Positions 26,935 through 31,422 of a DNA stretch of 39,265 bases are shown one piece after another. This stretch comes from Pseudoxanthobacter soli DSM 19599. GTDB lineage: Bacteria > Pseudomonadota > Alphaproteobacteria > Rhizobiales > Segnochrobactraceae. The position numbers and the translations under genes are program-made. The notes under the pieces are model-generated. The model searched no databases. It was not told the origin of the DNA and saw only the letters and a program-made list of their open reading frames with translations. Location: assembly GCA_945898215.1 (NCBI GenBank), contig CAMDHY010000031.1, positions 1-39,265 of the forward strand. Reading direction: 5' to 3'. Every line of letters starts with the position of its first letter. Position 1 is the first letter of the stretch.

Positions 26935-29900
26935 ATGGCGCAGCGTGGACGCTTAGGCGAAGGCCGCCCCGAGCCGCTCGGAGTGACGGTGGAGGACGGC
27001 GGCGTCAACGTCGCCGTCGTCTCGCAGAACGCCACCCGCATCGAGCTCTGCCTGTTCGAGGCCGACGGCGCCACCGAGACCGACCGCATCGCGCTGCCCG
27101 AGCGCACCGGCGACGTCTTCCACGGCTTCGTCCCGGACGTGCCCCCCGGCACCCGCTACGGCCTGCGGGCCGACGGACCCTTCGACGTCCAGAACGGCCA
27201 CCGCTTCAATCCGGCGAAGCTCCTCGTCGACCCCTACGCCACCGCCCTCGACCGCCCCTTCCGCCTCGACCCGGCGATGTTCGATCGCACCATCGACGGC
27301 CGTATCGAGCGCGACGACGCCGACAGCGCGGCGGCGATGCCGAAGGCGATCGTGCAGGTGGGCGGGTCGCATGAACCGCCGGCAGGGCAGGGCCGGCGCA
27401 GCGCCAGCGACGTCGTCTACGAGCTCCACGTCCGCGGCTTCACCAAGACCCACCCCGACATCCCCGAGCCGATCCGCGGCACCATGGCCGGGCTCGCCCA
27501 CCCGGCGGCGATCGACCATCTCGTCCGCCTCGGCGTCGGCACCGTCGAACTGATGCCGCTGTCGGCGTGGATCGACGAGCGTCACCTCGTCCGGCTGGGA
27601 CTGACCAACTACTGGGGCTACAACCCCGTCGCCCTGCTCGCCCCCGATCCGCGCCTCGCCCCCGGCGGCATGGCCGAGGTGCGCGCCACGGTCGACGCCC
27701 TGCACGCGGCCGGCATCTCGGTCATCCTCGATGTCGTCCTCAACCACACCGGCGAGGGCGACGCCTTCGGCCCGACAGTGTCGCTGCGCGGACTGGACTC
27801 CGCCCTCTACTTCCGCCACGGCGGCGATCGTCCGGGCGGGCTGATCGACGACACCGGCTGCGGAAACACTCTCGCCCTCGACCGGCCGGCGATGCTGCGC
27901 CTCGCCATGGACACGCTGCGCCACTGGGCGGTGGCGGGCGGCGTCGACGGCTTCCGCTTCGACCTCGGCGCCACGCTGGGGCGCCGCGCCGACGGCTTCG
28001 ATCCGGCCGCTCCCCTCTACCAGGCGATCGAGCAGGACCCGCTATTGCGGACCTTGCGCATCGTCGCCGAGCCCTGGGACATCGGCCCCGGCGGCTACCA
28101 GCTCGGTTCGCTTCCCTTCCGCTGGGGCGAGTGGAACGACCGCTACCGCGACACCGTCCGCCGCTTCTGGCGCGGAGACGCGTGGACCGTCGGCGAACTC
28201 GCCACTCGCCTCGCCGGTTCCGCCGACGTCTTCGCCGCCCGCCACCGCCGGCCGTCGTCGAGCGTCGACTTCCTCGCCGCCCACGACGGCTTCTCGCTGG
28301 CCGACCTCGTCTCCTACGAGCACAAGCACAACGCCGCCAACGGCGAGGACAACCGTGATGGCCACGGCGAAAACCACTCCTGGAACCACGGCGTCGAGGG
28401 GCCGAGCGACGATCCGGCGATCCAGGCCGCCCGCAAGGCCGACGTCCGCGCGCTGCTGACGACGCTGCTCGTCTCGCGCGGCGCGCCGATGATCGCGATG
28501 GGCGACGAACTCGGCCGCACCCAGGGCGGCAACAACAACGCCTACTGCCAGGACGGGCCGCTGTCGTGGATCGACTGGGCGAGCGCCGACCGCGGCCTCG
28601 CCGCCTTCGTCGGCCGGCTGGTGCGGCTGCGCGCCGCGAACCCGGCGCTCTCCGCCGACCGCTTCCTCACCGGCGCCCCGGTCGACGACAGCGGCATCGT
28701 CGACGTCGAGTGGCGCACGCCGGATGGTGCGCCGATGGCGCCGTCGGACTGGGAGAGCGGTGACAACCACACCTTGATCGCCGCCTACTACGCCCCCGCC
28801 ACCGACGGTCGCGCCGCCGACCGTGCCGTCGTGGTCCTGCACGCGGGGGGCGACCCCCTCGATGTCGTGGTGCCGGACGTCGAGGAGGGCTCGATCTGGT
28901 GTGTCGCCGCCGATTCCGCCGCCCCGGATGAGGCGTCCATGGCGCGCCGCTATGACGGCCTCGACCGTGTACCGGTCGCCGCGCGCAGCGCCGTGGTGCT
29001 GCTCGAGGCCGTGAAACAGAGTGAAACCAATCACTTGGAGCCCGAGACGGCAGTGGCGTCCGCCGCCGTCGAAACGGGCTCGCCGAATGCCTCCCCGGCA
29101 CCGGATGAAGCGCGATCACTGATCACGGATCATGATCCGGCGGCTGTCGGTGCCACCAAGGGGGAGGGTGCCTCTCCTTCATCGACTGACACCGGTCCCG
29201 CCTCGGACACCGGCGTCCCCGAGGGCCCAGTCCCGGACACCCTCGTCCCGGAGAGGGGCGTCGGCGCCGCCGCGCCACCCGCCCCGCCGGCCCCGACCGC
29301 GCTCCCGCCGGCGCCCACCATCGTCCCCGCCCGCATCGAGACCGGCGTGCTCGACCGCCTTGCCGCTGCGGCGGGCCTGGCACCGTTCTGGTGGGACGTT
29401 TCCGGCAACCGCCACGTCGTCGGCGTCGAGGCGAAGCAGGCGATCCTCGCCGCCATGCGCCTGCCGGCGGCGACCACCGCCGAAGCGCGCCAGAGCCTGT
29501 CGCGACTCGCCGAGCGCCGCGACCGCCGTCGCCTGCCGCCGGTCGTGGTCGCCCGCGACGGCGAGCCGGCCACCGTCACCATCGCCGCCCCGGCCCCGCG
29601 CGCGCTGGTGCTGGAACGAGCCGACGGGGTGACGCAGCCGCTGCTGGTCGGCCTCGATGCGCCGCGCATCACCGCGCTCGCCGCCGACGGCCGCGGTGTC
29701 GAGCGCATCCGCGTGCCGCTGCCGCCGCTGCCGGTCGGCGTCCACCGCCTCGTCACCGAGGACGGTGCGGTGTCGTGCCGGGTGATCGTCGCCCCGCGCC
29801 GCTGCCACCTGCCGCCGGCGCTCGCCGGCGACCACAAGGCCGTCGGCCTCGCCACCCACCTCTATGCCGTGCGCCGCAACGGCGATGCCGGCATCGGTGA

Positions 29901-31422: not shown

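Follow-up and report, generated by a model that had tools for sequence, protein, structure and literature searches.

How did a glycogen debranching enzyme, GlgX, and a 4-alpha-glucanotransferase, MalQ, come to be encoded as a single protein at this locus, and what might the join contribute? The stretch of DNA analysed here (the window, 39,265 nucleotides) is bases 1-39265 of contig C31; the draft genome to which it belongs has 224 contigs totalling 4.78 Mb and is 97.2% complete. The explanation that we consider probable is that this is a two-enzyme debranching protein descended from one ancient event in the Alphaproteobacteria that joined glgX to malQ, and that the MalQ half was later lost in several lineages. 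The observations that bear directly on this are the open frame, its domains and catalytic letters, the gene row in which it lies, the single GH77 domain of the genome, and the trees of both halves.

The fusion is the last gene of the row glgP-glgB-glgC-glgA-glgX::malQ (Table 1), with only 14 bases between the glgA stop and the fusion start, as expected from the preliminary description of this DNA, which had placed it inside the glycogen operon. The sole GH77 domain found in the draft genome is that of the fusion itself. Elsewhere in the genome, contig C18 carries another complete glgX, adjoining treZ and a further GH13 gene, and a second GlgP match begins at the edge of contig C159. The BetI-like TetR frame downstream has a GTG that overlaps the fusion stop; the match to this family begins near residue 42 and the start is unsure.

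Table 1. Positions of the fusion gene, its parts and the surrounding frames in the window.
Feature	Position	Strand	Remark
Dak1 dihydroxyacetone kinase frame	3343-4578	-	adjoins PTS-type frame
PEP-utilising PTS-type frame	4869-6686	-	adjoins Dak1 frame
glgP, glycogen phosphorylase	19674..21824	+	start upstream of Pfam match, not fixed
glgB, branching enzyme	21508..24069	+	open frame; true start probably further in, GlgB_N from near 21895
glgC, glucose-1-phosphate adenylyltransferase	24126..25391	+	Pfam/NCBIfam match
glgA, glycogen synthase	25469..26920	+	Pfam/NCBIfam match
glgX::malQ fusion gene	26935..31422	+	1495 codons plus stop, one open frame
GlgX half, residues 1-690	26935..29004	+	CBM48 at 14-102, GH13 catalytic domain
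D343 codon, GH13 nucleophile position	27961..27963	+	alignment to 2WSK
E379 codon, GH13 acid/base position	28069..28071	+	alignment to 2WSK
D451 codon, GH13 third acid	28285..28287	+	alignment to 2WSK
Linker, residues 691-803, 113 residues	29005..29343	+	length outlier; low GC3 mid-linker
MalQ N-terminal region, residues 804-974	29344..29856	+	MalQ_N beta-sandwich at 867-954
GH77 4-alpha-glucanotransferase domain, residues 975-1464	29857..31326	+	Pfam Glyco_hydro_77
D1255 codon, GH77 nucleophile position	30697..30699	+	alignment to 4S3P
E1303 codon, GH77 acid/base position	30841..30843	+	alignment to 4S3P
D1354 codon, GH77 third acid	30994..30996	+	alignment to 4S3P
BetI-like TetR regulator frame	31419-32144	+	directly 3' of fusion
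Small CsbD-like stress protein	32290-32448	-	C-terminal end of a long frame
Frame with GGEEF-like motif, possibly diguanylate cyclase	32583-33536	-	motif read by eye from DNA

Translation of the fusion gene gives 1495 residues with a single terminal stop. Pfam matches to CBM_48 (53.6 bits) and Alpha-amylase (33.5 bits) in the GlgX half, and to MalQ_N (38.6 bits) and Glyco_hydro_77 (326.3 bits) in the MalQ half, all lie above their cut-offs. At the whole-enzyme level the protein belongs both to TIGR02100 (GlgX; 851.4 bits against a cut-off of 640.9) and to TIGR00217 (malQ, GH77; 349.9 bits against 205.65), with the GH13 and GH77 acids present, and its MalQ half is of the long E. coli type. The six acids D343/E379/D451 and D1255/E1303/D1354 align with the same motifs in the structures 2WSK (E. 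coli GlgX) and 4S3P (E. coli MalQ), and their positions are those of the catalytic residues of GH13 and GH77. All six are kept in each of the 39 other fusions that were aligned, one position of L130 falling unread at a contig edge. The GC content at codon position 3 (GC3) is 0.93 in both enzyme halves. Debranching and disproportionating activities are predicted for the protein from these sequence features. The domain search that the preliminary description had proposed, finding GH13- and GH77-type domains in one frame, upholds its account of a single GlgX-MalQ frame with two complete enzymes and six catalytic acids in place.

The linker between the two halves is of disordered-type composition (21 Ala, 20 Pro and 12 Thr among its 113 residues). 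Compared with the 0.93 of the flanking halves, GC3 drops to 0.78 over the linker as a whole and to 0.55-0.65 at 29065-29184, indicating a weaker coding signal there; the linker contains no stop. The linker may include inserted DNA that was formerly non-coding. The corresponding linkers of 39 other fusions, aligned to the window protein, measure 11-36 residues. The long Pro/Ala-rich linker described earlier is therefore real but untypical of the fusion: of the 40 fusions compared, only that of this genome has it. There is no support for its being a dispersed repeat. A search of the genome with its 339 bases turned up no other full-length copy, but 43 short hits (E up to 1), of which the strongest covers 46 bases at 83% (contig C3, E 1e-4); on contig C39, 22 bases match exactly.

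A survey of other genomes, also proposed in the preliminary description, found the same architecture as a single frame in 41 of them, giving 42 with the window's, a few of which are truncated where the contig or locus ends (L130, L131, L138). The counts rest on stop-to-stop readings of the frames and not on the open-frame column of the search, and G120, G149 and G197 were left out of them. Within the order sample (249 genomes), 37 genomes match the NCBIfam model NF011082 at E<=1e-250, comprising 26 verified fusions, three unverified, seven with GlgX alone and one (G181) split by a TGA. The phylum sample (398 genomes) gave 18 matches, 15 fused, two with GlgX alone and one TGA-split (G257), and the class sample (385 genomes) five, three fused, one TGA-split (G763) and one with GlgX alone (G044); there is overlap between the samples, and weaker fusions may escape so strict a threshold. 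The split cases (L147 in G257, L220 in G763 and L161 in G181) each have a single in-frame TGA between glgX and malQ, and may reflect selection by the method, as the search favours in-frame cases. Beyond the phylum, 25 of 247 genomes in the phylum of G627 (Bryobacterales, judging by L066) match at E<=1e-200, the 29 matches listed all being to the GlgX part; this survey is weak, as such a threshold hides the MalQ half where the halves match as separate stretches, and the window's own gene likewise appears in such a listing by its GlgX part alone.

Two apparent variants did not survive closer reading. One, L066 (G627:C709), reported as a frame of 2042 residues, comes to 783 codons when the DNA is read stop to stop. 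The other, a triple fusion glgA::glgX::malQ (L114, L117 and L128; frames of 1911-1934 codons), has no Pfam family in its first ~500 codons, which we take to be a chance open frame in GC-rich DNA. GlgX is a separate gene in 79 of 116 rows of the fetched loci, a hand-thinned set, in keeping with the earlier statement that the two enzymes are encoded separately in most bacteria. Most fusion genomes (36 of 40, three of which are unverified as one frame) have no GH77 other than that of the fusion, and G130, G272, G275 and G379 have one further GH77 each. Members of f50 and f23 have MalQ N-terminal regions of 85-146 residues, against 171 in the window protein; in three of them (L165, L138 and L166) the region is 85-87 residues long and much of MalQ_N is missing.

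The number of fusion events was assessed from trees of the MalQ domain. Fusions are referred to here as of alphaproteobacterial or Magnetococcia type, according to named neighbouring rows in the trees and the kinship column. The named neighbours are Methylocella, an Acetobacteraceae MAG and Rhizobiaceae for the former and L077, a Magnetococcales MAG, for the latter; only L077 is so named, the other Magnetococcia-type rows being placed by the tree. In a tree of 60 MalQ domains all 25 alphaproteobacterial-type fused domains form one clade (100/100) and the 11 of Magnetococcia type form another (100/100), and a joint clade of the two is rejected (p-AU 0.001). Sixteen further MalQ sequences were added, 13 from relatives that match the MalQ half at 35-43% identity and have no fusion, together with the second copies of G272, G275 and G623; a fourteenth such relative, G050, was already present as L164. 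In the resulting 76-row tree both clades stay (100/99 each, with the bootstrap not fully settled), and none of 39 free or otherwise joined MalQ falls inside the alphaproteobacterial fused clade. Both trees were made without L091, L143 and L085, which are long or odd, the first MalQ tree having left out 10 loci (mostly Pseudomonas), duplicates and cut loci; free MalQ was sampled from loci near glgX and from 60 relatives. A sister relationship of MalQ::TreY to the MalQ clade of the window protein, seen in the first MalQ tree (SH-aLRT 84), was not resolved with more rows.

One fusion stands outside both clades. The MalQ of L131 (G127) pairs with the free MalQ of G016 (100/100), and its GlgX likewise falls outside the main GlgX clade described below. 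Its placement in the trees makes it likely to be a third, independent GlgX::MalQ joining within the order, G127 being a draft at 88% completeness and 3% contamination in which foreign sequence is possible. Taken with the two separate MalQ clades, this indicates that the fusion arose at least twice, and probably three times.

A tree of 56 GlgX sequences contains a clade of 40 rows (100/100) made up of 24 fused and 16 separate proteins. Seven of the separate GlgX are of Rhizobiaceae type (two Rhizobium, two Ensifer, one each of Agrobacterium and Shinella, and one Rhizobiales); the other nine come from f16 (four from genus g79 and one from g60), f43 g45 (two) and f6 (two). Grouping the 24 fused GlgX as one clade is rejected (p-AU 0.0003), as is grouping the 16 separate ones (p-AU 2e-6). 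With the four f16 g79 rows removed, a single clade of separate GlgX is borderline (p-AU 0.054), so that a third separate loss is itself only borderline; the f16 g79 group adjoins the fused G001 and G002 (99/97). These p values are weakened by the naming of the tested groups after a first tree had been viewed, and the trees were made under LG+G4 without a mixture, with several rows of odd composition. The 56 rows, 40 from the clade (omitting L143, a long row) and 16 from elsewhere, were hand-picked from a first tree of 116 rows, which had left out 24 loci (mostly Pseudomonas, Methylobacterium and near-copies) as well as duplicate loci.

No GH77 was found in any of the genomes of the 16 separate members, completeness figures being to hand for nine of them. 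The GlgX and MalQ trees of 23 alphaproteobacterial-type fusions have 13 of 20 splits in common; 1000 label shuffles averaged 0.23 shared splits and never exceeded 2. Among the loci of this clade read at length, glgC-glgA precedes glgX in nine of ten fused (the exception being L175) and 12 of 13 separate loci (the exception being L163). A gap of at least 1.6 kb between glgA and glgX is found in the fused L029, L165, L166 and L167 and in the separate L162 and seven Rhizobiaceae-type loci; a short gap occurs in other members, both fused and separate. The gap contains a phosphoglucomutase in all four cases tested (L166, L060, L029 and L162). A tblastn search downstream of the separate glgX genes (17 loci in 16 genomes, four of the loci with less than 1.5 kb of downstream DNA) detected no MalQ remnant, the best E being 0.077; the putative losses thus leave no trace, and the trees alone speak for them. 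G012 and G059, whose GlgX belong to a different lineage, lack GH77 as well. A missing GH77 is thus to some extent common in the order, which counts against reading it as loss.

That separate GlgX lie inside a fused clade, with no GH77 found in the genomes of all 16, is best explained by a single ancient fusion after which the MalQ half was lost at least twice. The converse would be that a separate glgX was ancestral in this clade and that malQ was joined to it several times independently. Raw material for this exists in the form of adjacent but separate glgX and malQ in L030, L040, L052, L057, L082 and L164, and independent joining did occur elsewhere, in the Magnetococcia type and in G127. 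Repeated joining is nevertheless unlikely, since the fused MalQ halves form a single clade free of other MalQ, their branching follows that of the GlgX tree, and no separate member retains any GH77; the same three observations suggest loss rather than repeated gain as the direction of change in the alphaproteobacterial clade. It is more likely than not that GlgX::MalQ was ancestral in a large alphaproteobacterial group, and that the separate GlgX of Rhizobium, Agrobacterium and Ensifer are remnants without the amylomaltase half, no other GH77 having been kept. If so, these bacteria must clear the maltotetraose released by GlgX by some route free of MalQ. What a specialist may not expect in this picture is the history so reconstructed, with fusion long ago in the Alphaproteobacteria, separate joinings in other groups, and more than one loss of the transferase half.

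The remaining alternatives concern the window protein itself and its working. That the join is an artefact of assembly or sequencing has a negligible chance of being right: the genome is a draft, but a further 41 genomes carry this fusion in one frame, and in most of those whose gene row was read it stands at the corresponding place. The 41 genomes exclude a sequencing accident for the join itself, though not for the length of this linker. It is also improbable that GlgX and MalQ act as separate proteins here, through cleavage of the long linker or translation from an internal start. The linker is about three times or more as long as that of any of 39 relatives, with its disordered composition and low mid-linker GC3, and in-frame GTG codons occur at 29053 and 29347; however, no clear ribosome-binding site precedes either codon (by eye), and both halves stay in one frame. 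Direct channelling of maltotetraose from the GlgX site to the MalQ site would fit the consecutive action of the two enzymes in E. coli glycogen breakdown, as given in the available part of PMC11046441, and the maintenance of the join over much divergence. We nevertheless regard it as quite unlikely. Linkers range from 11 to 113 residues across the fusions with no apparent conservation, the MalQ N-terminal regions of the f50 and f23 members are shortened relative to that of the window protein, and maltotetraose diffuses freely. In yeast glycogen debranching enzyme (GDE), a well-studied enzyme with two activities, the active sites lie more than 50 Å apart, mixtures of site mutants regain full activity and are as potent as wild type, and there is no preference for internal transfer, according to the accessible text of PMC4837477.

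In E. coli, the stubs of 3-4 glucoses left by GlgP are taken off by GlgX, and MalQ together with MalP consumes the short chains (PMC11046441, available part). For the window protein we infer both activities, the flow of product and the benefit of joining, as follows. GlgP would trim the outer chains to stubs of about four glucoses, whereupon the CBM48-GH13 half would cut the alpha-1,6 bond to free maltotetraose or maltotriose. The GH77 half would then rearrange the freed oligosaccharides, either with one another or by transfer to glycogen ends, yielding glucose or maltose and chains long enough for GlgP to act on again. Because no other GH77 was found in the genome, the fusion would serve all amylomaltase needs, with both halves at a fixed ratio and kept near glycogen through the CBM48. 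Rather than closed channelling, the fusion most likely brings equal dosage of the two activities and a transferase held close to glycogen. Deletion of the MalQ half would have come later, in several related lineages. Two steps of short-branch removal would thus be tied at a fixed ratio here, while close relatives keep the first step without a GH77 transferase, and fused, separated and MalQ-less versions would offer a direct test both of what the joining contributes and of how rhizobia dispose of short chains.

The architecture is already named in NCBIfam, where NF011082 and NF011083 are entitled 'bifunctional glycogen debranching protein GlgX/4-alpha-glucanotransferase', so the fusion is not an unrecorded kind. 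NF011082 (PRK14510.1-1, 1410 positions) has the same two enzymes in the same order. The window protein has this architecture, a complete GlgX followed by a complete MalQ in one frame, and scores 1675.5 bits against a cut-off of 2511; it is not a formal member but a divergent protein with an unusual linker. The cut-off was passed by one of eight fusions scanned, Methylocella silvestris L029 (2789.5 bits), whose linker has 15 residues against 113 here, and by none in the genome surveys. No publication on a GlgX-MalQ fusion was found by title or abstract start in a search that mostly lay outside the subscription journals, and the available parts of PMC11046441, PMC7935935, PMC4837477 and PMC4236520 contain no description of one.

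The Magnetococcia-type fusions (L077, L141, L142, L145, L146 and L148-L153) have the same domains in the same order as the window protein, as judged by Pfam for L077 and by alignment for the others, but form a clade apart from it in both the GlgX and the MalQ tree. E. coli GlgX (2WSK) and MalQ (4S3P) are solved homologues of the two halves with the same catalytic motifs, encoded by separate genes, malQ belonging to the mal regulon; the structure entry 7U39 scores slightly above 2WSK for the GlgX half. The MalQ::TreY (NF011077) and MalQ::GlgE fusions contain the same long type of MalQ, but with MalQ first and TreY or GlgE as partner. The window protein reaches 580.4 bits with NF011077, by its MalQ part only, against a cut-off of 2148, and does not belong to this family. 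Two Microvirga frames, L062:2231-7324 and L069:2853-7802 (1698 and 1650 codons), are MalQ::TreY proteins above that cut-off. In G181, a 1365-codon MalQ::GlgE frame (L161:9749-13843; MalQ_N and GH77, then GlgE_dom_N_S, amylase and GLGE_C) lies immediately downstream of a glgX frame closed by an in-frame TGA. The Neisseria GlgB-MalQ fusion also joins MalQ to a GH13 glycogen enzyme, the partner there being the branching enzyme and MalQ being N-terminal, according to the available text of PMC11046441.

Eukaryotic AGL/GDE, to which the preliminary description had likened the fusion, combines 4-alpha-glucanotransferase and alpha-1,6-cutting activities in one polypeptide, as is proposed for the window protein. 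It differs in its domain families, the reverse order of the activities and its indirect debranching, as far as the accessible portions of PMC4236520 and PMC4837477 describe it, and a Pfam search of the window protein gave no match to hGDE_N, hGDE_amylase, hGDE_central or GDE_C, placing it outside the GDE family. The likeness therefore holds for the presence of two such activities in one chain but is otherwise loose, as the order of the chemistry differs: in GDE, transfer comes first and a stub of one glucose is cut afterwards, while GlgX removes the short branch directly.
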